Origin: Sphingomonas suaedae
GTDB lineage: Bacteria; Pseudomonadota; Alphaproteobacteria; Sphingomonadales; Sphingomonadaceae
Reading direction: 5' to 3'
Assembly (NCBI RefSeq): GCF_007833215.1
Contig: NZ_CP042239.1
Span: forward strand, 2,418,001-2,482,000
Length of the DNA: 64,000 nt
The notes beneath the pieces were generated by a model that was not told where the DNA came from, did not search any database, and was given only the letters and a program-made list of their open reading frames with translations. Shown piece after piece: positions 30,154 to 62,170 of the stretch; position 1 is the stretch's first letter, and every line of letters begins with the position of its first letter. The position numbers and the translations under genes are program-made.

Positions 30154-31638
30154 ATGAACGCACCCGTCGCCAGCATCGTCATCGTCGGTGGGGGCACCGC
30201 CGGATGGATGGCGGCAGCTGCCGCAGCACGCTTTCTCAACGATGGCAGGCGCACCGTCACTCTGATCGAATCCGACGCGATCGGAACGGTCGGCGTCGGC
30301 GAAGCGACGATCCCGCCGATCCGCGAGTTCAACCACCGGCTGGGCATCGGCGAGCGCGACTTCATCCGCGAGACCGGCGCAACGATCAAGCTGGGTATCG
30401 AGTTCGTGAACTGGGCGCGGCAGGGCGACCACTACCTCCACCCGTTCGGCGACGTCGGCCACGACTTCGAGGGCGTCGCCTTTCACCAATTCTGGCTGAA
30501 GCACCGGATCGGCGCGCTCGAAGACTATTGGATGTCGGCGCAGATGGCGCGGCGGGACCGCTTCACCCACCCTGCCGCCGACCCGCGCTCGCCGCTGGGC
30601 GGGCTGGCCTATGCCTATCATTTCGACGCCGGACTCTATGCCGCCTTTCTGCGCCGCCGGGCCGAGGCGGGCGGCGTCCGTCGGGTCGAGGGGCGGATCG
30701 CCAGCGTCGAGCGGGATGGCGAGAGCGGCCATGTCACGGCGGTGGTGCTCGACGATGGACGGTGCGTCGCGGGCGATTTCTTTATCGATTGTTCGGGCTT
30801 TCGCAGCCTGTTGCTCGGCGACGCGCTTGGGGTCGGCTATTGCGACTGGTCGCACTGGCTGCCCTGCGACCGCGCGATCGCGGTGCCGTGCGAACGGGTC
30901 GATCCGCTGACGCCGCTGACGCGATCGACCGCGCATGGCTTTGGCTGGCAATGGCGCATCCCTCTGCAGCATCGCACCGGCAACGGGATCGTCTATGCGA
31001 GTGCGTTCGGAAGCGAGGACGACACGCGCGAGACCTTGCTCGCCAATCTCGATGCGCCCGCGACCGATGCGCCGCGCAGCCTGTCCTTCACCGCCGGGGT
31101 GCGCGAGCGTCAGTGGGAGGGAAATGTCGTTTCATTGGGGCTTTCGGCGGGGTTCATCGAGCCGCTCGAATCGACCAGCATCCATCTCATTCAGACCGGC
31201 ATCGCCAAACTGATGTGGCTGTTCCCCGACCGCGACATGGGGCCGCGCGGGCGCGACGAATATAACCGGCTGATGCATGAAGCCTATGAATATGTCCGGG
31301 ACTTCATCGTGCTGCACTACAAGGCGACGGAGCGCCGCGACACGGCGTTCTGGCGCCATGTCGGGGAGATGGCGATCCCGGACAGTCTTGCCGGAAAGCT
31401 GGAATTGTGGCGCGAGCGCGGGCGGGTGCGGCGCTTCGACCATGACCTGTTCGGCGTGCCGAGCTGGGTCGCGGTACTGCTAGGCCAGCGGATCGAGCCG
31501 CAGGGGCACGACCCGCTGGTCGATTCGATGGACGATGGCCGCGTCACTTCCGCGATGCGGCACATCGCCGCGACCTATGCCGAGGTGGCCGGGGAGCTTC
31601 CCGGCCATGCCGACCAGATCGCGGCGATGATCCGTTAG
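30154..31638 (+). CDS. Flavin-dependent tryptophan halogenase family protein (Hal1)
   Basis: A 494-residue FAD-dependent protein without a signal peptide, so it is presumably cytoplasmic. FAD motif GGGTAGW lies at 12-18, Lys79 in ATIKLGIEF matches the catalytic Lys of the family, WQWRIP lies at 265-270 and Glu339 in EPLESTS matches the second catalytic residue. Family members chlorinate or brominate indoles using FADH2 and O2; the substrate here is unknown. It follows the binding-repeat gene by 64 bp and probably belongs to the GH5 operon. It ends 1 bp from the convergent GH3 gene. Confidence 0.9.
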   Translation: MNAPVASIVIVGGGTAGWMAAAAAARFLNDGRRTVTLIESDAIGTVGVGEATIPPIREFNHRLGIGERDFIRETGATIKLGIEFVNWARQGDHYLHPFGDVGHDFEGVAFHQFWLKHRIGALEDYWMSAQMARRDRFTHPAADPRSPLGGLAYAYHFDAGLYAAFLRRRAEAGGVRRVEGRIASVERDGESGHVTAVVLDDGRCVAGDFFIDCSGFRSLLLGDALGVGYCDWSHWLPCDRAIAVPCERVDPLTPLTRSTAHGFGWQWRIPLQHRTGNGIVYASAFGSEDDTRETLLANLDAPATDAPRSLSFTAGVRERQWEGNVVSLGLSAGFIEPLESTSIHLIQTGIAKLMWLFPDRDMGPRGRDEYNRLMHEAYEYVRDFIVLHYKATERRDTAFWRHVGEMAIPDSLAGKLELWRERGRVRRFDHDLFGVPSWVAVLLGQRIEPQGHDPLVDSMDDGRVTSAMRHIAATYAEVAGELPGHADQIAAMIR

Positions 31639-31639
31639 C

Positions 31640-34099
31640 TTACGGGCAGGCGATGACCTTGTCCGCCGCATTGCCGAGCGCGACGCGGGCAAGACTGAAG
31701 GTGAAGGCACCCTCGCTGCGCAGCGTGAATGGGGAAGCGACGCGGCCGAGGTTCGCGCCGCCCTTGGCAAAGCATTTGAGCGGCACGCCATAGCTGGTCC
31801 ATTCGCCCGGCGCCGCCGTCTCGATCGGGGTCGCGCGCACAGCGGCATCGCCCATACGGAACTGCACCGAACCAGCAGGCTTGGCATCCACGCGCATCGT
31901 CGCGACCAGCAGGACGTCGCCATTGACCTCACGCGTCAGGTCGAGCGGCGCTTGCGTCGCGAGCGCGACATCGGCTGGGCCGGATGCGATCGCGAAGCGG
32001 CGCGCGCCTTCCTGCACCACATGGTTGACCGCCGTCACCCGCACGCGCCCGCTGGCGGCGTCCGCCGGGACCGCGGTGATCCGCGTCGAATCGCCGGTTC
32101 CGCCCAGCACCTGGAGCGACCAGGACGCCGACGGCACGCCATTGGCGAAATAGACGTTGCCGGCGTCCTCGTCCGCCACGCCCGATTCCTCGGACAGCGG
32201 CTTCCACGGCATGGCGCCGCCTGCCAGCGTCAGGCCGTGGCCGAACGGGAACAGCACCGGGCCGTCCGCGCGCGCGGTCGCGGGCCAGGCTGCGGGCAGC
32301 TTGCCGACGAAGTCATAGGGCGCGCGGCGATCTCTGCGCTGGACCAGCAGGTCGGCGATGCCCGCCCCTTCCGATCCCGGCAGCCAGGCGACGACGAACG
32401 CATCGGCGACGTTGAGCTCCGGGTTCATGAACAGCGGGCGGCCGGTGACCATCACCGCGACGACCGGGATGCCCTGCGCCTTGAGCGCCTTCATCGTCTC
32501 ATACGGCTTGCGCAGTTCGGGGCGCAGCTGGAGCGTCTTGAGGTCGCCCTGAAACTCGGCATAGGGCGTCTCGCCGAACACGACGATCGCGACATCGGGC
32601 TTCTTCGCGAACTTGCCGTCGGGCGCCAGTTCGGCGCTGCCGCCAGTGGCGGTAACCGCATTCTCGAGCCCCTTCCAGATCGAGGTCGCGCCAGGGAAGT
32701 TGGCGTTGGTGACGTCGGTGCCCTGCCAGGTCAGCGTCCAGCCGCCCGACTGGCGGCCGATATCGTCCGCCGCGTCCCCGGCGACCAGCACATGCGCGCC
32801 CGCCTTCACCGGCAGCACCGATCCGCTGTTCTTGAGCAGCACCAGCGACTTGCGCACCGCGTCGCGCGCGATCGCACGGTGATCGGCATGGCCGAGCAGC
32901 GACCAGTCACCGGCATATTTGCGTGAGGAGGGCTTGCCCGCTTCGAACAGTCCCAGCCGCATCTTGACGCGCAGGATGCGCGCGACCGCATCGTCGAGGC
33001 GCGCCATCGGCACCTCGCCCGACTTCACCTGCGCCAGCAGCGAGTTCCACAGCGGCTTCCAGCTGTCGGGCGCCATGTATATGTCGAGCCCGGCGTTGAT
33101 CGCCTTGGGGCAGGACGCGTTGGTGCAGCCTTCGACCTGGCCGTGTGCGTTCCAGTCGGAGACGAGGAAGCCGCCGAAATTCATGCGATCCTTGAGCACA
33201 TCGGTGAGCAGCCCCTTGTGGCCCGTCATCTTGGTGCCGTTCCAGCTCGAGAAGCTGACCATCACCGTCGCCACGCCCTGCTCGATCGCGGGGATATAGG
33301 GGGCACCGTGGACGTCGCGCAGTTCCGCTTCGCTGATCCGCGCATCGCCCTGATCGCGTCCTTCATGCGTGCCGCCATCCGCGAGGAAATGCTTGGTCGA
33401 TGCGATGACGTACGGACCCGACAGCAGGTTGGTGCCATTGCCCGGCCCCTGCAACCCGCGCACCATCCGCTCGACATAGGAAGCGACCAGTTTCGGGTCG
33501 GAGGAATAGCCTTCATAGGCGCGGCCCCAGCGGAAATCGCGCGGGACGGTGACGGTGGGGGCGAAGGTCCATTCCTGGCCGGTCGCGCGGATTTCCAGCG
33601 CGGTCGCCTGCGCAATTTTCTCGATCAGGTCCGGGTCGCGCATCGCGCCCAGGCCGATATTGTGCGGGAACAGCGTCGCGCCGATGATGTTGCTGTGGCC
33701 ATGGACCGCGTCGGTGCCCCAGATCACCGGAATGCCGACGCGCCCGCCGCTCTTGTCGATCGACGCTTCGTAGAATTCGTCGGCGAGCTGCAGCCATTTG
33801 GGTGCGAGGGCGAAGTCGTCGCCATAGGGGCCGCTGCTGCCGCCATTGAGCACCGAACCTAGATGATAGGTACGCACATCCTCCGGCGTGACGGCGGAGA
33901 TGTCGGCCTGAACCACCTGCCCGACCTTCTCCTCCACGCTCATCTTGGCGATGAGCGCCTTGATGCGCGCCTCGACAGCGTTGTCGGTCTGCTGCGGCCA
34001 GGTCGGCGACGGCCAGATCTCGGGATTGACCTTGCTCTCTTGCGCGGCGACCGGCGCGGCGAGCGCGGCGCCGAGCGCCAGAACCAACAGCTTCTTCAT
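31640..34099 (-). CDS. Glycoside hydrolase family 3 with C-terminal domain (ExoP-type)
   Basis: An 819-residue secreted enzyme with a signal peptide (1-20, ending VAAQ). The GH3 N-domain contains WGTDAVHGHSNI and the nucleophile Asp315 in FLVSDWNAH. The second domain includes KSLVLLKNSGSVLP. The C-terminal about 180 residues form a beta-rich module, as in exo-1,4/1,3-beta-glucosidases of the ExoP group. GGAGGGGA precedes the ATG. It is the last gene of the GH43-Hal2-Hal-like-GH3 operon, starting within the stop of the Hal-like gene. It is likely a beta-glucosidase or beta-xylosidase. Confidence 0.9.
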   Translation of the reverse strand: MKKLLVLALGAALAAPVAAQESKVNPEIWPSPTWPQQTDNAVEARIKALIAKMSVEEKVGQVVQADISAVTPEDVRTYHLGSVLNGGSSGPYGDDFALAPKWLQLADEFYEASIDKSGGRVGIPVIWGTDAVHGHSNIIGATLFPHNIGLGAMRDPDLIEKIAQATALEIRATGQEWTFAPTVTVPRDFRWGRAYEGYSSDPKLVASYVERMVRGLQGPGNGTNLLSGPYVIASTKHFLADGGTHEGRDQGDARISEAELRDVHGAPYIPAIEQGVATVMVSFSSWNGTKMTGHKGLLTDVLKDRMNFGGFLVSDWNAHGQVEGCTNASCPKAINAGLDIYMAPDSWKPLWNSLLAQVKSGEVPMARLDDAVARILRVKMRLGLFEAGKPSSRKYAGDWSLLGHADHRAIARDAVRKSLVLLKNSGSVLPVKAGAHVLVAGDAADDIGRQSGGWTLTWQGTDVTNANFPGATSIWKGLENAVTATGGSAELAPDGKFAKKPDVAIVVFGETPYAEFQGDLKTLQLRPELRKPYETMKALKAQGIPVVAVMVTGRPLFMNPELNVADAFVVAWLPGSEGAGIADLLVQRRDRRAPYDFVGKLPAAWPATARADGPVLFPFGHGLTLAGGAMPWKPLSEESGVADEDAGNVYFANGVPSASWSLQVLGGTGDSTRITAVPADAASGRVRVTAVNHVVQEGARRFAIASGPADVALATQAPLDLTREVNGDVLLVATMRVDAKPAGSVQFRMGDAAVRATPIETAAPGEWTSYGVPLKCFAKGGANLGRVASPFTLRSEGAFTFSLARVALGNAADKVIACP

Positions 34100-35205
34100 C
34101 AAATCCCCTCCATCATACGGATGATCTTCGTTTCGGCGACTGCGCGGGCGGTTGGATCGATGCGCTCGGGGCGCACCCCCTGGGCAAGCCACCAGCCGAT
34201 CCACTCGCCCGGCGTCACCGGGTCCCAGTCGCGATAGGGCATACGCCCCCGCGCGGCAAAGCCGGTGCGCAAGTTCGCGAGATCGGGCGTCGCCAGGCCG
34301 TTCCACCGCTCGGTCGCCCAGTCCAGCAGCCGCCCGTGCGCGATGGCGGTGCGGCGATTATATTCCGCGGCCTCGCGCGGTGAGGGCTCGGCATGCGGCA
34401 TGAACTCGATCGCGCGCAGGATATCGCCGTGCGCGGCAGAAAGAGCATGGCCGTCGAATGGCTCGGCCACCAGCGTAGCTTCGCCCAGCGCGATGCGGTT
34501 GCCGGCGCGCGGCGCGGGATGACGCCCCGGCGGCAAGCCGGCCCCCCGAGACAGGCGCCAGCCCCAGGGCGGGCTGCGCCACTCGACTGCCCCGGCGCCG
34601 GTCGCGATCGTCTCGCCCTCGGGCGCGCCGCTCGAGATCGGCTGGGCGACCAGCGATGGCAGGTGGGCGGACCAGTCGGTCCAGTCGTCGCCGGGCGCGG
34701 CGCAATCGAGGAGCAGGTCCGCCTCCGGCACGTCCGACGCCCGCGCGATATCCAGCGCCGCCGCCATCTCGGCGAGCAGCGCCGAATAGGCCGCCATGTC
34801 GAAACGTACTCCGAACGGTTCCGCGTCGCGCGCAGCCAGCGTCGGCCATGGCATTGTCCGGCCAGTGCGTTCGCGTTCGCTGCGCAGCCATAGCTGGTGC
34901 AGCGCGACGCCATCGACATGCGGGATCGCACCGGGCGGGGCGAGTTGGACGCCGTCGAGCTCCACCCGCCGGATCGCCACCGCGCCGGTGCGGCGGATGA
35001 ACAGCGCCTGGTCCAGCCCGATCGCGCGGTGAAAGCCGTCGATCGTCAGCGTCGCCGCGCCGATCCGATCGAGCAGCGCGTTGGGACTGACGGGGCGCTC
35101 GACCAATGTGATGCGGGCAGCGGGCAGAGCGCGGCGAAAGGCGATGGCGGCCGACAGCGCGATCACGCCGCTGCCCAGGACCGCGACGCGCGCGACCGCG
35201 CTCAT
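34099..35205 (-). CDS. Degenerate tryptophan-halogenase-like protein (Hal-like)
   Basis: At 368 residues it is about 130 shorter than intact relatives. Homology shows in TLVERPVS, FIRRTGA and in DCAAPGDDWTDWSAHLP, which parallels DCSG...DWSHWLP of Hal1. The FAD loop is GSGVIAL instead of GGGTAGW; the catalytic Lys position (residue 78) is Ile; WxWxIP is WGWRLS (214-219); EPLES is EPFDG. It is thus probably not a halogenase, yet the frame is open and it is coupled by ATGA/TGATG overlaps to Hal2 and GH3. A binding or partner role is possible. Confidence 0.8.
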   Translation of the reverse strand: MSAVARVAVLGSGVIALSAAIAFRRALPAARITLVERPVSPNALLDRIGAATLTIDGFHRAIGLDQALFIRRTGAVAIRRVELDGVQLAPPGAIPHVDGVALHQLWLRSERERTGRTMPWPTLAARDAEPFGVRFDMAAYSALLAEMAAALDIARASDVPEADLLLDCAAPGDDWTDWSAHLPSLVAQPISSGAPEGETIATGAGAVEWRSPPWGWRLSRGAGLPPGRHPAPRAGNRIALGEATLVAEPFDGHALSAAHGDILRAIEFMPHAEPSPREAAEYNRRTAIAHGRLLDWATERWNGLATPDLANLRTGFAARGRMPYRDWDPVTPGEWIGWWLAQGVRPERIDPTARAVAETKIIRMMEGI

Positions 35206-36707
35206 ACGCCGCTCCAGGCGCCATGCGCGCGCAAGGCAGTTGCATGATCGGGCATTGCCGCCACACGCTGCGCGATACTGCCCGCAATCTCGTCAAGCGT
35301 GCGGGTCAGGGCCGGGGCGGTCGGATTGTCCGCGCGGGGATCGTAGCGCTCCGGCAGCTGCCCCTGCCCCAGATAGACCGCGACCCAACTGGGTTCGAGG
35401 AACAGGCCTTCTCCATATTTCTCGATCCGGCCGCTCTCGCGCCACAGCTCCAGCTTTTCGGCGAGGCTGTCTGGCACCGCCATGGTGCGGACATGGTTCC
35501 AGAAGTCCGAATCATCGCGGGTCGTCGCGTGATAATGGAGGATCAGAAAGTCGCGGACGCGGTCATATTCATAATCGACCGTGGCATTGAATGCGACGCG
35601 GTCGGCGGGGTCGATCCGGCGCTCCGGAAACAATTCGATCAGCCGCATCACCGCCATTTGCGCAAGGTGGATGCTCGTCGATTCGAGCGGTTCCAGGAAG
35701 CCGCTGGCAAGGCCGATACTGACGACATTGCCGACCCAGCTTTGGGCCCGCCGCCCGGCGCGGAAGCGCAGGATGCGCGGCTCGGCTTGTCGCGCGCCCT
35801 CGACCGCGCCCAGGATCGCGTCGCACGCCGCATCCTCCGGCAGGAAGGCGCTCGAAAAAACATAGCCATTGCCGACGCGATGCTGCAGCGGGATGCGCCA
35901 GCGCCAGCCCGCGCTCATCGCGGTGGCGCGGGTATAGGGCTCGATCGGTCCTGGCATACTCTGCGTCGGAAGCGCCGCGGCGCGGTCGCAGGGCAGCCAG
36001 TGCGACCAATCCTCCCACGCCGCGTCCATCGCCCCCCCGATCAGCAATGCGCGGAAACCCGAGCAATCGATGAACAGGTCGCCCGCAATCCGCTCGCCGC
36101 TGTCGAGCACCAGCTCCGTGACGTCGCCGCTTTCGCCGGCGCGTTCGACGCCGATGACCCGCCCCTCGGTGCGAACCGCGCCGCGCGCCTCGCTATAGCC
36201 GCGCAGCATCGGCGCCAACTTGGTCGCGTCGAACTGGTACGCCCAGCCATAGCTGGTCGCGAGAAAGTCACCATCGGCGGGGGGGAAGGCGAAACGATTG
36301 GCCCGCGCCGCCACGATGGGGAGCGAATAGTCCTCAAGGCTCCGCCGCGATCCTTCTTCCCGCGCGCGCAGCCAGTAATGGTGAAACCCGACCCCCGCCA
36401 GATCGACGCCATAGGCGCCGAACGGGTGAACATAGCGGTCGCCGATCGCACCGAAATCGCGGAAGTCGATCCCCAGCTTGAAGGTGGCGTTGGTGGCGCG
36501 CATCATCTCGGCCTCGTCGATGCCGAGCCGCTGGAGAAACGCGCGCAGGTGGGGCAGCGTCGCCTCCCCCACCCCGACGATGCCGATCTCCTCGGATTCG
36601 ATCAGGCGCACGTCCGCCACGCCGGGCAGGAACCGCGCGAGGGCGGATGCGGTCATCCACCCTGCGGTTCCGCCCCCGACGATGACGACGCGCACCGGAT
36701 CGATCAT
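35202..36707 (-). CDS. Flavin-dependent tryptophan halogenase family protein (Hal2)
   Basis: A 501-residue protein with GGGTAGW at 11-17, Lys77 in ATFKLGIDF, WRWRIP at 268-273 and Glu342 in EPLESTS, all family catalytic features. No signal peptide is seen. The ATG at 36707 overlaps the GH43 stop (ATGA), and its own stop overlaps the start of the degenerate paralog. Translation is therefore tied to that of a secreted beta-xylosidase. The natural substrate is unknown. Confidence 0.9.
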   Translation of the reverse strand: MIDPVRVVIVGGGTAGWMTASALARFLPGVADVRLIESEEIGIVGVGEATLPHLRAFLQRLGIDEAEMMRATNATFKLGIDFRDFGAIGDRYVHPFGAYGVDLAGVGFHHYWLRAREEGSRRSLEDYSLPIVAARANRFAFPPADGDFLATSYGWAYQFDATKLAPMLRGYSEARGAVRTEGRVIGVERAGESGDVTELVLDSGERIAGDLFIDCSGFRALLIGGAMDAAWEDWSHWLPCDRAAALPTQSMPGPIEPYTRATAMSAGWRWRIPLQHRVGNGYVFSSAFLPEDAACDAILGAVEGARQAEPRILRFRAGRRAQSWVGNVVSIGLASGFLEPLESTSIHLAQMAVMRLIELFPERRIDPADRVAFNATVDYEYDRVRDFLILHYHATTRDDSDFWNHVRTMAVPDSLAEKLELWRESGRIEKYGEGLFLEPSWVAVYLGQGQLPERYDPRADNPTAPALTRTLDEIAGSIAQRVAAMPDHATALRAHGAWSGV

Positions 36708-38341
36708 GGCGTTCCCGATGCCGCGTGCGGGCCGACGACCAGTCCCATGAACAGCCCGGCATGAATGGTGGCGAGCCGCGACACGTCGATGTTGCGCGCG
36801 ATGCTGCGCCATGCGGTTTCGCCGACCGGGCGCCAGTCGGCCTGTGCGACGCCCTTGTCGAAGCTCAGTTTCAGCTCGACCTCGCTCGCCCCGCCACGCG
36901 GAACCGAGGCGATCGTCACGCCATTCTCCGGTTCGTCCTTTGAGATTCGGCGCCGCACGACCAGCTTGTCGCCTTCAAGCCCCACGAACATCAAGTGATT
37001 CTCGTCGGCGACCGCAAGCAACCCCGCGCGATCCGACGCCCCCTTGGGATCGAAGGCCACACGCGTCGTCCAGCTGGCCTCCGCGTGGCGCATACGCTTG
37101 CCGATATAACTCGGCTGGGCGAGCGCCCCAGCCGCGACCGGGCGTGCGTCGAGCGTCAGCGACCCATTCGCGATCCGCCACCATGGCGCGCCCTTTGGCG
37201 TGCGCAGCATCAGCCAGTCATCGGTGAGCTTCGGCGCATCGAACTCCTCGCGCCAGTCGCGCGCCTCGCCGCGCGAGGCGGGGAGTTTCGGTCGCGCGAC
37301 GCTGGCGGGAAGCGGCGTGCGGGGCGGCAGGATCGATGGCCAGCCGTCCTTCCAGGTCACCGGCAGCAGGAAGGTCTCACGGCCCAGCAACGTCTCCTGC
37401 CCGCGGAACGGGCGCGTGGCGAGGAATACCGCCCACCAGCTGCCGTCGTCCAGCTTCACGAAATCGGCGTGACCGGTTGCCTGTACCGGGTTCGGGCGAT
37501 CGTCGGGCAGGTCGCGCTGGGTCAGGATCGGGTTGACCGGGCCTGGCGTGTAGGGGCCGGTCAGCGTGCGCGCGCGATAGATGGTCTGCGCGTGCTGATC
37601 CGCCGTCCCGCCCTCGGCAGCCGACAGGTAATACCAGCCATCGACCTTGTAGATATGCGGCCCCTCCGCCCAGATCGGCTTGGTTGACGGGTCGACCCCC
37701 TTGTCCACCAGCAGGTGGCGCGGCCCCTTCATCTTGTAGGTCGCGAGGTCGATCTCCTGCAGCCACAAGGCCCGGTGTCCGTCATATTCGGGCTTTCCTG
37801 GTGGCGCGTCGTTGTTGACGATCCAGGCGCGGCCGTTCTCGAAATAGATCGACGGATCGATCCCGCCAAAACTGAGCCAATGTGGTCCGCTCCACGGCCC
37901 GACCGGATCCTTTGCGGTCAGCATGAAATTGTCGCTGCACCCGACGCAGGTGTTGAGGATGTAATAGGTACCGTCATGATATTCGATCGTCGGCGCGAAG
38001 ACCCCGCGATCCAGCGCCAGCCCGCTAAAATCGAGCATCTCCGGACGGTCGATCGCGTTGCCGATCTGACGCCAGTTGACGAGGTCGCGGCTATGATAGA
38101 CCGGAATTCCCGGGAACCAGGCAAAGGTCGATGTGACGAGGTAGAAATCCTGCCCCACCTTCACGATCGACGGGTCGGGGCGGAAGCCGGGCAGCACCGG
38201 ATTCGCGAAATGCCCCGGCGGAAGCTCACGCGGCTCTGCCTCTGCCGCATAAGCGACATAGTCGAATCGTGCGCTTCCCTGCTGCGCAGCAACCGGTGCA
38301 GCAGCGATCAGCATCGACAACAGCGCGCAAAAACCCTTCAT
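36704..38341 (-). CDS. Glycoside hydrolase family 43 beta-xylosidase
   Basis: A 545-residue secreted enzyme with signal peptide 1-20. The five-bladed propeller carries Asp56 (FRPDPSIVK, base), Asp162 (GGIDPSIYF) and Glu226 (IWAEGPH, acid). The C-terminal part (about 365-545) is a beta-sandwich typical of GH43 beta-xylosidases. It releases xylose (or arabinose) from xylo-oligosaccharides. AGGGAGCAGG precedes the ATG at 38341. It heads the minus-strand operon and shares a divergent gap with xylX containing a XylR site. Confidence 0.92.
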   Translation of the reverse strand: MKGFCALLSMLIAAAPVAAQQGSARFDYVAYAAEAEPRELPPGHFANPVLPGFRPDPSIVKVGQDFYLVTSTFAWFPGIPVYHSRDLVNWRQIGNAIDRPEMLDFSGLALDRGVFAPTIEYHDGTYYILNTCVGCSDNFMLTAKDPVGPWSGPHWLSFGGIDPSIYFENGRAWIVNNDAPPGKPEYDGHRALWLQEIDLATYKMKGPRHLLVDKGVDPSTKPIWAEGPHIYKVDGWYYLSAAEGGTADQHAQTIYRARTLTGPYTPGPVNPILTQRDLPDDRPNPVQATGHADFVKLDDGSWWAVFLATRPFRGQETLLGRETFLLPVTWKDGWPSILPPRTPLPASVARPKLPASRGEARDWREEFDAPKLTDDWLMLRTPKGAPWWRIANGSLTLDARPVAAGALAQPSYIGKRMRHAEASWTTRVAFDPKGASDRAGLLAVADENHLMFVGLEGDKLVVRRRISKDEPENGVTIASVPRGGASEVELKLSFDKGVAQADWRPVGETAWRSIARNIDVSRLATIHAGLFMGLVVGPHAASGTP

Positions 38342-38407
38342 CCTGCTCCCTCTCACCTATCGTGCCGGTTCTTTCCCGATCCGCACCGCCCTTTTTCGCG
38401 GACGGCC

Positions 38408-38444
38408 TTGACACCTTCATAGGAGCATGATGTTAGCGCTATCA
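38408..38444. promoter_or_regulatory. XylR operator and promoter, xylX operon / GH43 operon
   Basis: TTGACA at 38408-38413 is followed 17 bp later by TGTTAGCGCTATCA (38431-38444), so the operator covers the expected -10 of a plus-strand promoter for xylX. The same site could control the divergent GH43 operon. Confidence 0.75.
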
Positions 38445-42733: not shown

Positions 42734-42744
42734 GGGGCTTGGGC

Positions 42745-49636: not shown

Positions 49637-49683
49637 CCTCACCCTTTCGCCGCGCGCGAAACCCATTGCTGGCCGGTCGCGGG

Positions 49684-49723
49684 TTGACAAGCTCCGTCCC
49701 GTCATATCATGTTAGCGCTAACA
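49684..49723. promoter_or_regulatory. XylR operator (perfect palindrome) and promoter, GH67 / GH3 divergent gap
   Basis: TGTTAGCGCTAACA at 49710-49723 is a perfect 14-bp palindrome. TTGACA at 49684-49689 and a TATCAT at 49705-49710 suggest a plus-strand promoter whose -10 region touches the operator. GH67 lies on the other side. Confidence 0.8.
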
Positions 49724-49757
49724 ATAAAGTGTCGTTTTGACGACCCGAGGGGATGAA

Positions 49758-54547: not shown

Positions 54548-54553
54548 GGTTCC

Positions 54554-55765
54554 ATGCCCAGGATCGTTTCCGCACGCGTCATCGTCACCTGCCCCGGGCG
54601 CAATTTCGTCACGTTGAAGATTGATTGCGACGACGGCAGCACCGGGCTGGGTGATGCGACGCTCAACGGGCGCGAGCTGGCGGTCGCGAGCTATCTCACA
54701 GACCATGTGATCCCGTGCCTGATCGGCCGCGACGCGCAGCGGATCGAGGATATCTGGCAGTATCTCTATAAGGGCGCCTATTGGCGGCGCGGGCCGGTGA
54801 CGATGAGCGCGATCGCCGCCGTCGACACCGCGCTGTGGGACATCAAGGGCAAGATCGCCGGGCTGCCGCTCTACCAGCTGCTGGGCGGGGCGATGCGCGA
54901 AGGGTGTATGGTCTATGGCCATGCCAATGGCGCGACGATCGAGGATACGATCGAGGCCGCGCTCGAGTACCAGCGGCAGGGGTACAAGGCGATCCGGCTG
55001 CAATCGGGCGTACCGGGGCTCGCCTCGACCTATGGCGTGAGCAAGGACCGCTATTTCTACGAACCCGCTGATGCCGATCTGCCGACCGAGAATGTCTGGT
55101 CGAGCGAGAAATACCTCCGCTCGGTCCCGCCGCTCTTCGCTGCGGCGCGCGAAGCGCTCGGCTGGGATGTGCACCTGCTGCACGACGTCCACCACCGGCT
55201 GACCCCGATCGAGGCGGCGCGGCTGGGCAAGGATCTCGAGCCCTATCGCCCGTTCTGGATCGAGGATTCGACCCCGGCCGAAAATCAGGCGAATTTCCGA
55301 CTGATCCGCCAGCACAGCACGACGCCGCTCGCGGTGGGGGAGGTGTTCAATTCGATCTGGGATTGCAAGGGGCTGATCGAGGAGCAGCTGATCGACTATA
55401 TCCGCGCGACCGTGGTCCACGCCGGCGGCATCACCCATCTGCGCCGGATCGCTGCGTTCGCCGATCTGCACAATGTCCGCACCGGCTGTCACGGCGCGAC
55501 CGACCTGTCGCCGGTGTGTATGGCCGCCGCGCTGCACTTCGGCCTGTCGGTGCCCAATTTCGGGGTGCAGGAATATATGCGCCACACTGACGAGACCGAT
55601 GCGGTGTTCCCGCACGGCTACAGCTTCGTCGACGGGATGATGCATCCCGGCGACGCTCCTGGTCTGGGGGTCGAGCTCGACGAGAGCCTGGCCGCCACCT
55701 TCCCCTACAAACGTGCCTATCTGCCGGTGAACCGGCGCGAGGACGGCACGATGCACGACTGGTAA
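54554..55765 (+). CDS. manD: D-mannonate dehydratase, enolase superfamily (ManD)
   Basis: A 403-residue enolase-superfamily enzyme. Metal ligands Asp211 (LLHDVHHR), Glu237 (FWIEDSTPA) and Glu263 (AVGEVFNS) and catalytic Arg148, Tyr160 and His213 match characterised ManD enzymes with a one-residue offset. It dehydrates D-mannonate to 2-keto-3-deoxygluconate. In this locus it would serve glucuronate released by GH67, but uronate isomerase, fructuronate reductase and KDG kinase/aldolase genes are not in the window. It starts 6 bp after GH3 copy B. Confidence 0.9.
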
Positions 55766-55781
55766 GCCAAGGAGCCCCTCG

Positions 55782-56930
55782 ATGACCCCGACCCGCCGCC
55801 AGACCCTGTCCGGGCTTGCCGCCCTGCCCCTCGTCGCCGCGCTTCCTGCCCGCGCGCGGAACAAGCCCGCGACGATTCAGGCGGCGGCGCTGGCCAGCGG
55901 GCGCCGTTTTGGCAGTGCGGTCGCCTGGGCGCCGCCAGGCGCGGATGCGGGGTCGTTCAACAACCCCGCCTATGCAGAAATCGTTGCGCGCGAATGCGGG
56001 CTGATCGTGCCCGAGAATGAGATGAAATGGCAGTCGATCCGGCCCTCGGCGACCGAATATCGGTTCGACCGGCTCGACGCGATGGTCACATGGGCGCGCG
56101 GCAAGGGGATCGGCGTGCGCGGTCACACCCTGCTCTGGCATCGACCGAAATGGTTTCCGGCGTGGCTCAACAATCACGATTTCGGCACCTCGCCGAAAGC
56201 GGCGGCGGAGAAGCTGCTGGGTGAGCATGTCCGCACCGTGATGGGGCGGTACAAGGAAACGATCACCAGCTGGGACGTGGTGAACGAGGCGGTCGATCCG
56301 GAGACGTCGGGCCTCGTCGAAACCTCGCTATCCAAGGCGTTCGGCGGAGTCGAACCCGCGCTCGACTTCGCCTTCCACATCGCCCGCGCGCAGGCGCCCG
56401 ACGCCGAGCTGGTCTATAACGACTATATGAGCTGGGAGCCGGGCAACGAGAAACACCGCGCCGGCGTGCTCAAGCTGCTCGAAGGCTTCCGCAAGCGCGG
56501 CGTGCCGGTCGATACGCTTGGCATCCAGAGCCATATCGAGATGTTCACGCTCGACCCCAGGACCGGTCTTGGCCCGCGGCAGGAGCGCGAATGGCGCGCC
56601 TTTATCGATGAGGCCGTCGGCATGGGCTACAAGCTGATGATTACCGAGCTGGACGTGAAGGACAATGCGCTGCCGGGCGATCCGGCGGTGCGTGATGCGG
56701 GGGTCGTCGCCTATCTGCGCGCCTATATGGAGCTGATGCTGTCCTATCCCCAGCTGCGCGACGTGCTCGCCTGGGGTATGGTCGACAAATATAGCTGGCT
56801 GCAGGGATTTTCGCCGCGCAAGGACGGACTGCCGCTGCGCTGCTGTCCTTACGACAGTGCGTTTCGACCCAAGCCGATGCGGGACGAATTGATCCGGCTG
56901 TTCGCAGCGGCCGCGCCGGCAGCCTCATAA
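55782..56930 (+). CDS. Endo-1,4-beta-xylanase, glycoside hydrolase family 10
   Basis: A 382-residue secreted endoxylanase. TPTRRQTLSGLAAL at the start is a Tat-like signal. The barrel shows VPENEMKWQSI, HTLLWH, acid/base Glu169 in WDVVNEAVD and nucleophile Glu289 in ITELDVKD. It cleaves the xylan backbone internally. It is the last gene of GH3-GH3-manD-GH10 and is the only clear endoxylanase in the window. Confidence 0.95.
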   Translation: MTPTRRQTLSGLAALPLVAALPARARNKPATIQAAALASGRRFGSAVAWAPPGADAGSFNNPAYAEIVARECGLIVPENEMKWQSIRPSATEYRFDRLDAMVTWARGKGIGVRGHTLLWHRPKWFPAWLNNHDFGTSPKAAAEKLLGEHVRTVMGRYKETITSWDVVNEAVDPETSGLVETSLSKAFGGVEPALDFAFHIARAQAPDAELVYNDYMSWEPGNEKHRAGVLKLLEGFRKRGVPVDTLGIQSHIEMFTLDPRTGLGPRQEREWRAFIDEAVGMGYKLMITELDVKDNALPGDPAVRDAGVVAYLRAYMELMLSYPQLRDVLAWGMVDKYSWLQGFSPRKDGLPLRCCPYDSAFRPKPMRDELIRLFAAAAPAAS

Positions 56931-57050
56931 CGACGGGGGCCAAGGCCTGGCTTCCGCATTGATCGCCATCCTTCCGCACGCCGGTTGACCCGCGCGTTCG
57001 CCCCGTCGCGCGTCGGACGATATACGCCCACACCGCGCCCCTCCTCCCCC

Positions 57051-57086
57051 CAAAAGAAAAGGCCGCCGCCTGGGAAGGCGACGGCC
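57051..57086 (-). terminator. Rho-independent terminator of the TonB-dependent receptor gene
   Basis: On the minus strand GGCCGTCGCC-TTCCCA-GGCGGCGGCC is followed by TTTTCTTTTG. It lies 23 bp after the receptor stop. The rest of the 178-bp gap to GH10 shows nothing gene-like. Confidence 0.88.
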
Positions 57087-57108
57087 GGGAGGTTGGGAAG
57101 ACTCGTGA

Positions 57109-60100
57109 TTAGAAGTTGAAGCGGATCATGCCGGTGATGCGGCGGTCGTTCATGTACCAGCCGCGCGGGACGAGCCGGATGTCGCCATTCTGGTCGGTCA
57201 CCGCCGCGCTCGTCTTCGTCACCGAGTTGGTGAGGTTCACGCCCTGGATCCCGAGCTTGAGCTGCGGCGTGATCGACACGGTGATCGATGCATCGAGCTG
57301 GCCGTAATCCTCCTGGAAGATCGGATCGAACGGCGTGATCACATCGCGCAGCGTCAGCAGATATTGTGAGCGCCAGCTATAGGATGCACGCGCCGAGACT
57401 GGCCCGATATCGATGAACGGAGTGATGTTGAACTGGTGCTCCGACAGCCCCTGAAGCGGGAAGTTCGCCCCCGTGATCGTCGGCTGGCGCCCCGCTGCCA
57501 CATCGGGATCGGTCTCGGACAAGGTGCTCTGCGGCACGCCGTCGCTCGACACATAGGTGTAGTTCGCCTGCAGGCCGAGCCCCTTAAGCGGGCCTGGCAG
57601 GAAGTCGAACACCTGCTGATAGGCGATCTCGAAGCCCTTGATCTTGCCGACGTCCGGCGAGTTGATCGGCGTCGTCACGACGGCTTCGAAGGTTTCGCCA
57701 TTGTTGGTGAAGGTGCGACGCACGGTGCTGTTGGTCAGCACATTGTGCAGTTCCTTGTAGAAGAACGATGCCGTCAGCTGACCGACCCGCGAGAAATACC
57801 ATTCCGCGGTGAGATCGAAGCTGTCGGCCTCTGTCGGGAGCAGTTCGGGATTGCCCGCGTTGAAGGTGCCCTGGATCGAAACCTGTCCGGGAGCAATCAC
57901 ACCATCCGACCCGAACGAGCCCGTTCCCGGCGCGACCGGCGTGACGACAACCGGAATCTGGTTGCCATTTGCGTCGACCTGCGGCCGCGCGGTCACGCCT
58001 ACCGGGAAATAGTTGCGCACCAGGCCGAGCGCGGGCGGCGCTACGCCCTTCGAATAGGCGGCACGGAACTGAAGACCGCCACCGACTTCGAGTTTCAGGT
58101 TAAGGCTCGGCAGCCAATAGTCATAGTCCAGATCGAAATTGTTCGGAACGATCGCGCCGTTCAGATAATTGGTGATCTGGGTCAGCTGAGCCGGCGACAG
58201 CGCGCACAGCGCATTGACCGTAGCACCCGCGCCCGACAGCACATTGTTGATCGATTCCTGGCAGGTGGCGTCGGTCGGCAGATCGGTCGGGAACGGGAAT
58301 TCGACAAAGCCTTCCGACTTGCGGTTGGTCGTGGTGTAGCGCACCCCGACATTGCCGCTGAGCTTCATCCCGCTATCGAATTCGCTGCCGAAGCGCAGCA
58401 TCAGATACGCCGCCTTGTTCTGCTCACGCTGCGGGTTGATTTCGCCCGCCGTGAACGGCTGGCCCGGAAGCGCGTTGGGACGATCCGCCAGCGAACGCCA
58501 GCCACCATTGATGATCTCGCCATTCGGACCGGTCGTGGTGGGTTCCCACTCCCGGTTTATGCGGTTCGCATAGTCGATATAGGCTTGGTAATAGGTCGCG
58601 GTGTTGCTGTTGTAGAACGGCCGACACTGGCCGTTCATCGGATTGCCCACCGAATTGCGGAAGAAATCGCTGAAGCAGAATTGCTGATAGCCCTGGAGCG
58701 GTGCGCCGCCGCTGCCGCCCTGAACGCCGTCGACCGGATCGTCCAGCCACACCGGCCCGCCATTGCCCCACTGCTCGCTCAGACGACCCCAATTATAGGT
58801 CGAGAAGCGAGCGACCTGATCGCGATCGGCATAGCGCCCACCGACGCGGACCGACTTGAAAAAGCCGTCGTCGGGAAAAGACAGTTCGGCGTCGAGACGG
58901 AAGGCATCGGAATTGCCGGTGCTCGCCTCGATATGGTCCATCGCCGAGCGATAGAAGCTGTTGTACGGATCCGCGAAACTCTGATGCGAGCCGGTATAAT
59001 AGGACGGATAGTCCGCCGAGCCTCCCGGCGTGCCGGTGCAGGGCAGAGTGGGGCAGCTTTGCGGCGCGCGGAATTCCACCGTGGGGAACGCACTCCCGTT
59101 CAGACCGATCGCGACATCCTGATAGGACGAGGTCCAGAGGCCGTTATCCATGATGTCGACGAACGAATCGACATGCTGATAGTCCGCGCTGATGCTGAAA
59201 TTGTCGGAGACCTGATAGCGGAAGTTGAACGAATAATCGTCGGTCACCGCGCGCTCATTGTGATCGCGACGGATATTGTTCGACTGAAGCCCGAATGCCG
59301 GCGTGCGGATATTGCCCGCAGTGTTCTGATCGTCGCGCCAGCCGGTCGGTCCCGTGATGACCCCGCTTTCGAACAGACCCGAGGAGTCGAAGAGGATCGA
59401 CGTGCCGTCGCGGGCACGCGAGTCGCCGTTGGACTCGACGTTATCGGTTGCGATCTCGATCGTGTGCTCGGTCCATGCCTGTCGCGCGTCGGAGCGCAGG
59501 AACTGGAAGGTCGCCTCTGCACGGCGATCGTTGCTGCGCCACTGGGCAGCGGCGGCATAGCCGAAGCGCCGACGCTCGAACTCCTGCGTGCCGATCACCG
59601 CGCCGCGCGGGAACAGCCCGCTACCCGTCTGAGTCGCGGTTCCGAACGGCACCACGTCGGTGCGGCTGCCGTCAGAATAGATCGGGCGAACGCGGAAGCT
59701 GGAAACCTGGAAGCGATCCGCACGCGAGAAGAGCTGCGAATAGGAGGCGCTACCGAGCAGGCCGATCTCGCCGATCCCGGTATCCCAGGTATTGCTGACC
59801 ACAAACGCTGCGGTTGGCGACGTCTTCTGGATGAAATCCGAATAGTTGAGCTCGAGCGAACCCGCCATCACGAAGCCCTTCTTGTCGAAGGGAAGCCGGG
59901 TACGCAGATTGACGACGCCGGCGATGCCGCCCTCGACGCGGTCGGCCGACGGGCTTTTGAACACATCGACGCCGCCGAGCAGTTCGGACGGGACATCGGC
60001 GAAGCTCAATGCGCGGCCATTGTTCGCTGTGAACGCTTCACGCCCGTTAAATTCCGAGCGAACATAGGTAAGGCCGCGCACCACGACGCCTGACCCCTCG

Positions 60101-60468
60101 ACCGAGAAGTGATCGGGATCGATGCCCGCTGCGAAGCGATTGATCGAAATGCCCGGAATACGCTGAAGCGTCTCGGTCACCGATCGGTCGGGCAGCGCAC
60201 CGATATCCTCGGCCGTGACCGAATCGACAATCGTGTCGGAGGTACGCTTGCGCTGCTGCGCGCTCTGCAACGATTCACGAAAACCCGTAACGACAACGGT
60301 GTCCGGATCGGTCGGCGCATCCTGCGCCTCGTCCGCAGGTGCCGTCTGCGCATATGCCGCCGACGGCAGTGCGAACGCTGTCATCAGCGCCGCCGTCGAA
60401 ACACCGATTCCCCAAGTCGCGCGACCATACCGGCCCTCCGCGCGCGCACGATTCCGCCAAATCGACAT
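57109..60468 (-). CDS. TonB-dependent receptor for xylan oligosaccharides
   Basis: An 1119-residue outer-membrane transporter with a signal peptide (about 1-40, ending SAAYAQ). A TonB-box-like TVVVTG and the plug domain (IGALPDRSVTETLQRIPGISI, GVVVRGLTYV) follow. The rest is the large beta barrel, and the chain ends in RFNF, the usual outer-membrane C-terminal aromatic. Size fits the oligosaccharide-type receptors of sphingomonads and Caulobacter. A XylR site lies upstream and GAGGAGGGG precedes the ATG. Substrate is inferred from the locus. Confidence 0.93.
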   Translation of the reverse strand: MSIWRNRARAEGRYGRATWGIGVSTAALMTAFALPSAAYAQTAPADEAQDAPTDPDTVVVTGFRESLQSAQQRKRTSDTIVDSVTAEDIGALPDRSVTETLQRIPGISINRFAAGIDPDHFSVEGSGVVVRGLTYVRSEFNGREAFTANNGRALSFADVPSELLGGVDVFKSPSADRVEGGIAGVVNLRTRLPFDKKGFVMAGSLELNYSDFIQKTSPTAAFVVSNTWDTGIGEIGLLGSASYSQLFSRADRFQVSSFRVRPIYSDGSRTDVVPFGTATQTGSGLFPRGAVIGTQEFERRRFGYAAAAQWRSNDRRAEATFQFLRSDARQAWTEHTIEIATDNVESNGDSRARDGTSILFDSSGLFESGVITGPTGWRDDQNTAGNIRTPAFGLQSNNIRRDHNERAVTDDYSFNFRYQVSDNFSISADYQHVDSFVDIMDNGLWTSSYQDVAIGLNGSAFPTVEFRAPQSCPTLPCTGTPGGSADYPSYYTGSHQSFADPYNSFYRSAMDHIEASTGNSDAFRLDAELSFPDDGFFKSVRVGGRYADRDQVARFSTYNWGRLSEQWGNGGPVWLDDPVDGVQGGSGGAPLQGYQQFCFSDFFRNSVGNPMNGQCRPFYNSNTATYYQAYIDYANRINREWEPTTTGPNGEIINGGWRSLADRPNALPGQPFTAGEINPQREQNKAAYLMLRFGSEFDSGMKLSGNVGVRYTTTNRKSEGFVEFPFPTDLPTDATCQESINNVLSGAGATVNALCALSPAQLTQITNYLNGAIVPNNFDLDYDYWLPSLNLKLEVGGGLQFRAAYSKGVAPPALGLVRNYFPVGVTARPQVDANGNQIPVVVTPVAPGTGSFGSDGVIAPGQVSIQGTFNAGNPELLPTEADSFDLTAEWYFSRVGQLTASFFYKELHNVLTNSTVRRTFTNNGETFEAVVTTPINSPDVGKIKGFEIAYQQVFDFLPGPLKGLGLQANYTYVSSDGVPQSTLSETDPDVAAGRQPTITGANFPLQGLSEHQFNITPFIDIGPVSARASYSWRSQYLLTLRDVITPFDPIFQEDYGQLDASITVSITPQLKLGIQGVNLTNSVTKTSAAVTDQNGDIRLVPRGWYMNDRRITGMIRFNF

Positions 60469-60522
60469 CCACCCCTCCTCGTTTCGAGAGCCTTTTGGCC
60501 CTTCTGCCCTGTTGCGCCCTCA

Positions 60523-60536
60523 AGGTAGCGCTAACA
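60523..60536. promoter_or_regulatory. XylR operator, receptor / Hal3 divergent gap
   Basis: AGGTAGCGCTAACA is the palindrome with a complete right half and core. It lies 55 bp upstream of the receptor start on the minus strand. It could also affect Hal3 on the plus strand. Confidence 0.75.
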
Positions 60537-60576
60537 TTTCATCGTCTTAAGCGAATGCGCAGCTTTCGGCAAGAGA

Positions 60577-60634
60577 TGTTGTGCGCTACCAGAAAGAAAA
60601 TGACGCAGATGTTGCATGAATGCTGCTGCAACAT
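60577..60634. promoter_or_regulatory. Degenerate XylR-like site and ATGTTGCA palindrome upstream of Hal3
   Basis: TGTTGTGCGCTACCA (60577-60591) resembles the XylR site with one inserted base. Further down, ATGTTGCA (60609-60616) and TGCAACAT (60627-60634) form perfect 8-bp arms around 10 bp, ending 18 bp before the Hal3 GTG. The second element could be an operator or an mRNA hairpin. Neither binder is known. Confidence 0.4.
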
Positions 60635-60652
60635 GAAGAGGGGGAGAGGCGC

Positions 60653-62170
60653 GTGGCGGAACGGGTTCGATCGATCGTGATCGCAGGCGGCGGAACAGCG
60701 GGGTGGATGACCGCCGCGGCTCTGGCTCGAGTGCTGGGGCGCGACTATGCCACGATCACGCTGGTCGAATCGGATGCGATCGGAACAGTGGGCGTCGGCG
60801 AGGCGACGATCCCCCAGATCGGCACATTCAATCGGCTGCTCGGCATCGACGAAAACGACTTTCTCCGTCGCACCAAGGGCAGTTTCAAGCTGGGCATAGA
60901 GTTTGTCGACTGGGGCGGGCTGGGCCGACGCTATTTCCACCCGTTCGGCAAATATGGGATCGATATGGAGGGCGTCTCCTTTCACGCCTATTGGCAGCGG
61001 CTGGCGGGCGATCCGCAATTCGCCCCCGAGTTCGGCGATGTCGATACCTTTTCGCTGATGGCGAGCGCGGCGCGTGCCAATCGCTTCATGCCGCCGATCG
61101 ACGCCGGCAACTCGCCACTGTCGAGTATCGCCTATGCCTATCATTTCGATGCGGGCCTCTATGCCCTCTATCTGCGCGAGATCGCTGAAGCGATGGGCGT
61201 CAATCGGGTCGAGGGGCGCATCGTCGATGTCGAGCGTAACGGCGAGAGCGGCCATATCGACGCGGTCGCGCTCGACTCGGGGCAGCGTATCGAGGGCGAA
61301 TTGTTCGTCGATTGCTCGGGATTCATCGGGCTGCTGATCGGCAAGACGCTCGGCGTTCCCTATATCGACTGGTCGGCGCACCTGCCCTGCAACCGCGCGG
61401 TCGCAGTGCCATGCGCATCAGCCCCCGGCCCACTCACTCCCTATACCCGCTCGACCGCGCACCGCGCCGGATGGCAGTGGCGCATTCCGCTTCAGCACCG
61501 GACGGGAAACGGCATGGTCTATTGCAGCGACTATATCAGCGACGATGAGGCGGCGGCCACCTTGCTCGCCAATCTCGATGGAGAGGCGCTGGCCGATCCC
61601 CGTTTCCTGCGCTTCACCACCGGACATCGCCAGCGGTTCTGGGAGGCGAATTGCGTGTCGATCGGCTTATCGTCTGGCTTCATGGAGCCGCTCGAATCGA
61701 CCAGCATCTGGATGATCCAGACCGGCATTGCGCGCCTGCTTTCGAATTTCCCGGACAGCAGCTTCGCGGAAGCGGATCGCGCCCGCTACAACCGGTTGAT
61801 GATCGAGGAGAGCGAGTTGATCCGCGACTTCCTGATCCTCCACTATCATCTCACCGATCGCACCGATTCGCCCTTTTGGGACTATTGCCGGACGATGGAG
61901 ATTCCCGAGCGGCTGGCCGAAAAGATGCGCGTGTTCGCCACCTCGGGCCGCTGTTTTCGCGAGCATGAGGAATTGTTCAACGACACCAGCTGGTTTGCGG
62001 TGATGGTGGGCCAGGGGATGCGTTGGGCGCGGCACGATCCGGTGGCCGAACTGTTGTCGCTCGCCGAAACGCGGGACCGCCTGGCGCATATCGCGGGCGC
62101 GGTTCGCGCATCGGTCGACTACATGCCCGACCATGCCGACTATATCCGACAGAATTGCGCCGCAGCCTGA
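60653..62170 (+). CDS. Flavin-dependent tryptophan halogenase family protein (Hal3)
   Basis: A 505-residue protein with GGGTAGW at 12-18, Lys79 in GSFKLGIEF, WQWRIP at 274-279 and Glu348 in EPLESTS. No signal peptide is present. The GTG at 60653 is preferred because GGGGGAGAGG precedes it; an ATG at 60620 lies inside the upstream palindrome. It is divergent from the TonB-dependent receptor, an arrangement seen repeatedly for this branch of the family. The natural substrate is unknown. Confidence 0.9.
   Translation: MAERVRSIVIAGGGTAGWMTAAALARVLGRDYATITLVESDAIGTVGVGEATIPQIGTFNRLLGIDENDFLRRTKGSFKLGIEFVDWGGLGRRYFHPFGKYGIDMEGVSFHAYWQRLAGDPQFAPEFGDVDTFSLMASAARANRFMPPIDAGNSPLSSIAYAYHFDAGLYALYLREIAEAMGVNRVEGRIVDVERNGESGHIDAVALDSGQRIEGELFVDCSGFIGLLIGKTLGVPYIDWSAHLPCNRAVAVPCASAPGPLTPYTRSTAHRAGWQWRIPLQHRTGNGMVYCSDYISDDEAAATLLANLDGEALADPRFLRFTTGHRQRFWEANCVSIGLSSGFMEPLESTSIWMIQTGIARLLSNFPDSSFAEADRARYNRLMIEESELIRDFLILHYHLTDRTDSPFWDYCRTMEIPERLAEKMRVFATSGRCFREHEELFNDTSWFAVMVGQGMRWARHDPVAELLSLAETRDRLAHIAGAVRASVDYMPDHADYIRQNCAAA

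Follow-up and report, generated by a model that had tools for sequence, protein, structure and literature searches.

Four halogenase-family genes in a xylan locus

The DNA analyzed here, hereafter the window, is a stretch of 64,000 nucleotides from the genome of Sphingomonas suaedae (G000:C1:2418001-2482000; genome 4.15 Mb, single contig). It contains a xylan locus in which Pfam identifies four proteins of the family PF04820 (Trp_halogenase). Three of these, Hal1, Hal2 and Hal3, are intact halogenases, and the fourth, which lies directly behind Hal2, is a catalytically dead paralogue. We refer to the four by lineage, as A (Hal2), B (the dead gene), C (Hal1) and D (Hal3); the window has one of each. 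The genes on which the argument rests, together with the TonB-dependent receptor of the locus, are as follows.

30154..31638, plus strand: Hal1, position C, intact halogenase (PF04820 615.5 bits; K79, E339)
34099..35205, minus strand: position B, catalytically dead halogenase paralogue (pseudo-halogenase), 368 residues (PF04820 54.9 bits)
35202..36707, minus strand: Hal2, position A, intact BrvH-type flavin-dependent halogenase (PF04820 603.5 bits; K77, E342, WRWRIP)
57109..60468, minus strand: TonB-dependent receptor, TIGR01782 (TonB-Xanth-Caul; 650.5 bits, cut-off 310)
60653..62170, plus strand: Hal3, position D, intact halogenase, divergent from the receptor (PF04820 618.1 bits; K79, E348)

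An earlier note on this DNA had spoken of four halogenase genes inside one xylan utilization locus. There are indeed four PF04820 proteins, but the number is reached only if the dead paralogue is counted, and the text of that note covers three. The starts that it gave fit Hal1 and Hal3, whereas Hal2 is on the minus strand and 35202 is its stop end.

All the motifs claimed for the three intact proteins can be read directly: GGGTAGW at residue 12, K79, WQWRIP at 265 and E339 in Hal1; GGGTAGW at 11, K77, WRWRIP at 268 and E342 in Hal2; and GGGTAGW at 12, K79, WQWRIP at 274 and E348 in Hal3, which starts with GTG at 60653. The conserved Glu sits in EPLEST in each. All three have the GxGxxG flavin adenine dinucleotide (FAD) motif, catalytic Lys, WxWxIP and EPLES Glu of BrvH-type enzymes. 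Their three best matches in the Protein Data Bank (PDB) are the same, 6frl, 6y1w and 9luq, and are nearer than PrnA or RebH. Because every halogenation residue is kept, their chemistry is likely to be halogenation. The genome as a whole encodes 11 full-length and three degenerate PF04820 genes, the latter each matched in two pieces, and all three degenerate genes overlap the stop of an intact upstream halogenase by 4 bp.

A dead paralogue that keeps the halogenase fold

The window's B lacks the strings GGGTAGW, KLGI, EPLEST and WxWxIP, reading GSGVIAL at the position of the FAD motif and EPFDGH at that of the Glu, and thus does not have the catalytic Lys and Glu of a functional halogenase. By homology it nevertheless belongs to PF04820, a family to which three other B proteins are assigned with 231.9-338.4 bits, and a profile alignment of B with A (hhalign) spans 487 columns with probability 100. 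An AlphaFold2 model of the window's B has a mean predicted local distance difference test score (pLDDT) of 81.2 and a predicted template modeling score (pTM) of 0.85. Searched with Foldseek, the model finds BrvH (6frl) as its best solved match (TM-score 0.76 by query length, E 5e-19), and its best solved folds are BrvH, Xcc4156, PyrH and PrnA (TM-score 0.72-0.76 by query length). As the model is well formed and its best fold matches are all halogenases, B, as modeled, retains the halogenase fold.

The loss of the catalytic residues extends to relatives. B has 407 homologues at E<=1e-5, and in the 120 listed ones (P0005-P0124) that were examined residue by residue the catalytic Lys is lost in 119, its position being occupied by Arg in 95, His in 15, Leu in 9 and Lys in 1. 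The Glu is retained in 35 of the 120 and the FAD (GxGxxG) glycines in 104. Those listed homologues that carry a source name are called tryptophan (7-)halogenase, except P0115; a protein named 'tryptophan 7-halogenase' can therefore lack the catalytic lysine. The ratio of nonsynonymous to synonymous substitution rates (dN/dS) is 0.13-0.47 for B as against 0.09-0.28 for A in 13 pairs that share members, and is below 1 in all 13. The B kind is under purifying selection in relatives, which is where the tested pairs come from; the window's own B lies outside them and may be decaying in this genome. That B is a decaying pseudogene or a sequencing artefact was considered and rejected for the family, given these dN/dS values, the 407 homologues and the open frames. 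The earlier note had overlooked the catalytic death of the fourth gene, its place behind Hal2-type genes and the conservation of its kind.

B might instead be a neofunctionalized flavoenzyme, or a flavin carrier serving the neighboring halogenases. The retained glycines (104/120) and the Arg at the Lys position (95/120) indicate constraint among the listed homologues, and no flavin reductase family is found among the 25 commonest neighbor families, which would suit such a role. However, the FAD motif is lost in other B genes (GRDAPLW in L093, GRTADVW in L094), some Caulobacter B genes retain the Lys and lose the Glu (L129, L133, L136), and the own-genome paralogue in L049 exceeds the window's B by about 90 residues. 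Because B genes differ in how the FAD motif, Lys and Glu are lost, the clade as a whole shares no one new active site, and we consider this explanation unlikely.

The A-B pair and the four-lineage block in relatives

To describe the surroundings of A we took, from 595 relatives of A found with the partner alignment as query, the 80 best, and the counts below describe these A-like loci. They contain 57 B genes in 56 loci, 50 of them placed by tree and seven short ones by motif loss only. All but two of the 57 lie directly behind an intact A halogenase, within 400 bp, and the two others begin at a contig end. The spacing in the 55 pairs is an exact 4-bp overlap in 32, -8 to +12 bp in 19 and 32-194 bp in four, and a further halogenase follows B in 40 of the 57. 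Two genes labeled PSE fall outside the 55-row B clade, of which L163 (near intact) was left out of the count and L158 was counted. In a first, smaller set of 15 pairs, the degenerate genes came out as a single clade (support 100), as did the partners upstream of them (support 80), and 13 of these B genes overlapped the partner by 4 bp (+31 and +5 bp in the other two); loci L085-L104 were chosen from a genome search, many for holding arrays. A FastTree phylogeny placed the 55 A partners and six reference partners in one side of the tree that comprises 63 rows, the remaining two rows both coming from L154, whose B-position gene has Lys and Glu.

The A and B proteins also diverge together. Across 33 loci, A-B distances show the highest correlation (Spearman 0.77; partial 0.66 given the receptor), and the partial correlations with the receptor are 0.13 for A given B and 0.38 for B given A. 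The latter difference hints that B reads a receptor-specific feature.

B loci occur, as labeled in the records, in Sphingomonadales, Caulobacterales, Maricaulales, Azospirillaceae and Parvularculales, and among gammaproteobacteria in Alteromonadales, Cellvibrionales, Steroidobacterales and Woeseiales. Two further records, L188 (Bacillus sp. 2B10) and L125 (Arthrobacter sp. TPD3018), hold sphingomonad-like halogenase-receptor loci and are probably mislabeled or contaminated.

The pair is commonly part of a larger set. In a congener (G102) the receptor stands divergent to a contiguous A-B-C-D-GH43 run, with GH10, MR_MLE, GH67, GH3, LacI, MFS and IlvD genes around it (GH, glycoside hydrolase; MFS, major facilitator superfamily). 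In G110, A-B-C form one group and D lies at the receptor, and G063 has three intact halogenases and no B within the 60 kb fetched. A tree of 77 proteins places Hal2 in A (support 98) and the dead gene on the B side. Hal1 groups with mostly C genes (97-99), which in relatives lie directly behind B, and Hal3 falls in a D group of 15 (support 99), two of whose genes directly follow B. With BrvH and Xcc4156 included in the tree, support for the A clade is 97. With one member per lineage in the tree, the window carries in split form a block that in relatives such as G102 is in one piece. Besides B, three intact halogenases are present in 24 of the 56 B loci, two in 23 and one in nine, all of these being lower bounds as the stretches have cut ends. 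A Niveispirillum plasmid carries four halogenase-family genes with GH43/GH9, and a Sphingomonas parapaucimobilis plasmid four with GH9/GH1.

Linkage to TonB-dependent receptors

The tightest partner of the halogenases is the receptor. A search matched 36 of 59 genomes, our own included, and the linkage was counted in 12 of the 35 others (those in few contigs) plus our own, after degenerate or weak PF04820 rows and below-cut-off receptor pieces were dropped and split receptor rows merged. In these 13 genomes, 39 of the 46 intact halogenases have a TIGR01782 receptor within 10 kb, where 2.65 are expected, and 26 have one within 1 kb, where uniform placement predicts 0.67. The association with TonB-dependent receptors and carbohydrate loci proposed in the earlier note is thus far from random. 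In our genome, a halogenase is found within 6 kb of six of the 18 TIGR01782 receptors. Starting from the receptor gives the same picture: close homologues (E<=1e-150) are found in 17 of 118 genomes of the order, our own included, in every case with a halogenase in the 1.5-kb flank. In the 56 B loci the receptor and the nearest halogenase are on opposite strands in 28 and on the same strand in 17, and 11 have no receptor in the stretch.

In a receptor tree, 50 of 54 receptors of B-labeled loci fall in a clade of 57, together with seven of no-B loci and none of 32 unlinked receptors; L163 is wrongly labeled with B and L087, through a score cut, wrongly without, errors that cancel in these counts. 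The window receptor belongs to this clade, and 18 receptors of no-B loci form a separate one. The four B-locus receptors outside the clade of 57 are two rows of L049, one of which (start 12330) is a doubtful frame, L117 and the second receptor of L136.

We compared the residues of 84 halogenase-linked and 32 unlinked receptors, sets that come from different searches and include clade effects. W560 is present in 100% and W567 in 98% of the window-receptor clade, versus 3% of the unlinked receptors. As a general halogenation target these Trp residues are not supported, since neither occurs (0%) among the 18 receptors that make up the second linked clade.

Gene neighborhood and glycan type

The remainder of the locus consists of a GH5, a CBM4_9 (carbohydrate-binding module) protein, three GH3, a GH43, a GH67, a GH10, an SGL lactonase, an IlvD/EDD dehydratase, a LacI regulator, an SASA esterase, an aldehyde dehydrogenase, an MR_MLE protein and a sugar MFS transporter beside the TIGR01782 receptor. 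On established knowledge of these families, we take the enzyme set to be that of a glucuronoxylan locus. The genes nearest to the four halogenase-family genes and to the predicted operators are:

27949..28965, plus strand: GH5, upstream of Hal1 (PF00150 158.7 bits)
28869..30089, plus strand: CBM4_9-containing protein, directly upstream of Hal1 (PF02018 28.2 bits)
31640..34099, minus strand: GH3 with Exop_C domain (PF00933, PF01915, PF18559)
36704..38356, minus strand: GH43, first gene of the GH43-Hal2-B-GH3 run (PF04616 303.6 bits)
46441..47550, minus strand: LacI-family regulator (PF00356)
47624..49705, minus strand: GH67 alpha-glucuronidase (PF07488 452.9 bits)
49737..54547, plus strand: two GH3 enzymes (Pfam)
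54554..56930, plus strand: MR_MLE enolase-superfamily protein and GH10 xylanase (Pfam)
62225..63769, minus strand: sugar MFS transporter (PF00083 375.6 bits)

Each intact halogenase accordingly stands in a unit with glycosidases (GH5-CBM-Hal1, GH43-Hal2-B-GH3) or, for Hal3, opposite the receptor, as had been described. The GH43-Hal2-B-GH3 run is closely packed, with successive overlaps of 4, 4 and 1 bp: the Hal2 ATG at 36707 overlaps the GH43 stop by 4 bp, the start of B lies within the Hal2 stop codon (a 4-bp ATGA overlap), and a candidate GH3 ATG at 34099 overlaps the B stop by 1 bp.

A census of neighbors, picked by hand and mostly by length, covered 94 proteins of 30 B loci and 83 of 21 no-B loci (drawn from 243 and 192 calls, respectively), and its figures are those of the 25 commonest families. 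The B-locus neighbors include GH43 (5), GH3 (5), GH10 (4), GH9 (3), GH97 (3) and GH67 (2), those of no-B halogenase loci GH13 (15), GH97 (3) and GH31 (2). Of the 56 B loci 22 contain Cupin_8-type genes, versus 3 of 24 no-B loci, and SapC has no match in the 80 A-like loci (profiles from two seeds in both cases). A-B loci lean to hemicellulose enzymes and to a LacI-type operator.

A role tied to an aromatic, lignin-linked part of xylan or to a feruloyl oligosaccharide, as the earlier note envisaged, fits the GH43, GH3, GH10 and GH67 genes of the B-locus census and the presence of all four in the xylan locus of this genome. Yet the same family stands in sucrose- and starch-type loci (GH13 in 15 of the 83 no-B neighbors). 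Among annotated plasmid regions (8 of 51 records examined), halogenases 48-58% identical to Hal3 lie beside receptors with sucrose- (GH68, GH32), starch- (GH13/GH97) or fucosidase-type sets in six of the eight. In our own genome, one A-B pair (L052) is beside GH20/amidohydrolase genes, another (L049) beside GH31/GH43/epimerase/MR_MLE genes, and other halogenases beside GH13 genes. The block leans to hemicellulose, and in view of these relatives and own loci the halogenases are not xylan-specific. Since sucrose-, starch- and GH20-type neighbors point to glycans without ferulate, which argues against an aromatic xylan substrate, we regard this role as very improbable.

Two other loci of the genome, L048 and L053, have a second halogenase type (~420 bits) with SapC and Cupin_8/JmjC-like genes beside a receptor (content by Pfam for L048, by similar layout for L053); L053 also carries an Xcc4156-like gene. 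A PADLOC defense-system search gave no match for P0001 and P0003.

Predicted operators

The palindrome TGTTAGCGCTAACA, allowing up to 3 mismatches, has seven sites in the window versus 0.51 expected, and none of 100 shuffles reaches seven. We take it to be the XylR box known from Caulobacter and Xanthomonas. The sites of interest, all predictions, are:

27913..27926: LacI/XylR-type operator, 36 bp before the GH5-CBM-Hal1 run (2 mismatches)
38431..38444: operator ahead of both GH43-Hal2-B-GH3 and the gene at 38474 (1 mismatch)
47591: operator upstream of the LacI gene (3 mismatches)
49710..49723: operator between GH67 and GH3 (0 mismatches)
60523..60536: operator between the receptor and Hal3 (2 mismatches)

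A predicted operator thus precedes each Hal transcription unit (sites 27913, 38431 and 60523), in agreement with what had been proposed, and the LacI-family protein (46441..47550) is, from sequence, likely to bind these sites. A further match at 26586-26599 (3 mismatches) lies inside an FMN-dependent dehydrogenase gene (26518-27843) and is probably due to chance. Operators with up to 3 mismatches occur in 27 of 32 divergent receptor/halogenase gaps of B loci, the window included, one of the 32 being supplied by the doubtful L049 frame. At 2 mismatches, the own loci L049, L050, L052 and L053 have no operator and L048 has one.

A proposed halogenase complex of glycan uptake systems

We propose that each of the four genes represents one of the four lineages that make up a receptor-linked halogenase block, and that the block is split here inside the xylan locus and probably induced together with it by the LacI-family regulator. 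A and B would be made together by translational coupling and would most likely form one heteromeric flavin-dependent halogenase. A would do the chemistry, using FADH2, O2 and halide and channeling hypohalous acid to the catalytic Lys, and B, with its fold kept and its catalytic residues lost, would serve substrate recognition or regulation. The constant order, the coupling, the co-distance and the catalytic loss under purifying selection are explained most simply if B is a non-catalytic subunit of A.

The substrate would probably be an electron-rich aromatic ring on something large that is common to many glycan uptake systems, a candidate being a peptide or protein that belongs to the uptake system and is handled in the cytoplasm; an aromatic part of xylan seems less likely. 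A large substrate is favored by the open site of BrvH, the weak relation to QhpG (both described below) and the Cupin_8-type genes in B loci. Taken whole, we give this reading, of a receptor-linked block with an A-B heteromeric halogenase and a large aromatic substrate of the uptake system, a probability of about 0.5. A far-reaching version, in which an obligate live/dead complex of glycan TonB uptake systems in Alpha- and Gammaproteobacteria halogenates aromatic side chains of a system protein (the receptor itself or a partner), either before export or in the course of it, tuned per receptor clade, seems to us a long shot.

Several observations weigh against the proposal. The heteromer is put forward from gene order and sequence, and co-distance of neighboring genes can arise from joint inheritance alone. 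The 4-bp overlap is not particular to A-B, as B overlaps the next halogenase in this way in 26 of 37 cases and other halogenase pairs do so in 16 of 38 (A to B, with starts as called, 25 of 49). The Glu survives in the 35 listed homologues noted above, one of which (P0101) has both Lys and Glu. Among B genes, that of the window is of the shortest and most diverged sort, with a nearest identity of 37%. The B-position gene at 9524-11047 of L154 likewise keeps both catalytic residues and is possibly the ancestral state of the dead clade. On the side of the receptor, Hal1 lies 26 kb and Hal2 20 kb away from the closest TIGR01782 gene. Eleven of the 56 B loci show no receptor, several of these stretches being cut by contig ends, and two A-B pairs (L049 of our genome and L117) stand at another receptor type. 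A lone intact halogenase in L051 (10169-11671; G000:C1:3282669-3284171), near a PilZ-domain gene and an ssb-looking gene, is 120 kb from the nearest such receptor. Finally, a common receptor target is not visible, since no Trp or Tyr is common to both halogenase-linked clades yet rare in the others (84 versus 32 receptors).

The halogenases might alternatively act during feeding on small aromatic or indole compounds, yielding a signal, a defensive bromo-indole or released hypohalous acid, with the receptor link reflecting co-regulation only. Hal1, Hal2 and Hal3 retain all halogenation residues, the predicted operators are of LacI type, and indole or its derivatives are reported to be halogenated by BrvH and by relatives from Xanthomonas (PMC5945002, PMC7336383). 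One diffusible product is, however, a poor fit both to loci with as many as three active lineages and a dead one and to halogenase sets that track receptor clades. We consider such a role possible but doubtful, and prefer a large substrate of the uptake system.

Comparison with known systems

BrvH of Brevundimonas (PDB 6frl) resembles Hal2 (474 bits over 487 residues, with all catalytic motifs). As far as the available portion of PMC5945002 goes, BrvH accepts indole poorly, has an active site that could admit larger substrates and prefers bromide, and a second halogenase gene with 42.7% identity adjoins brvH; that portion mentions neither a dead partner nor a receptor. In our tree BrvH also differs in position: it falls in neither the A nor the B clade and joins two SapC-type halogenases of our genome (support 92). 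Xcc4156 of Xanthomonas (PDB 6y1w) resembles Hal3 (508.6 bits) but groups with L053_11108, in an own locus of SapC/Cupin_8 type (support 100), and not with the window's four; it is without a known native substrate in the excerpted text of PMC7336383. The best PDB match of Hal1 is 9luq, the tryptophan halogenase of Pseudoalteromonas sp. L11 (486.1 bits). The free-tryptophan halogenases PrnA, RebH and PyrH are alike in fold and, by alignment to PrnA, in catalytic residues, but score about 248-296 bits versus 444-509 for BrvH, Xcc4156 and 9luq. PMC8269204 assigns enzymes of the BrvH type to a group that lacks the Trp4 binding motif.

The QhpG profile (NF049967, a monooxygenase resembling flavin-dependent halogenases) matches the halogenases weakly (23.2-33.1 bits), below the 240-bit cut-off for a peptide-Trp monooxygenase of this kind, and does not match the window's B. 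The substrate of QhpG is a protein Trp.

Xylan loci of the type described as carbohydrate utilization systems with TonB-dependent receptors (CUT) or polysaccharide utilization loci (PUL), with TIGR01782 receptors, have the receptor, GH10/GH67/GH43/GH3 enzymes, LacI regulator and sugar MFS transporter in common with the window; to our knowledge, four halogenase-family genes are not part of their described core. In the open-licence literature we found no paper linking such halogenases with the TonB receptors of glycan loci and none joining 'halogenase' with 'pseudoenzyme', and other papers may exist. Enzymes of this kind are known already; what appears to be new is the conserved pairing of a live with a dead member, together with its receptor linkage. 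BrvH-type halogenases have been studied as biocatalysts, without known native substrates in the parts of PMC5945002 and PMC7336383 available, and the receptor-linked loci with their conserved dead partner suggest a concrete hypothesis for these enzymes, that A acts together with B on a substrate among the uptake proteins.

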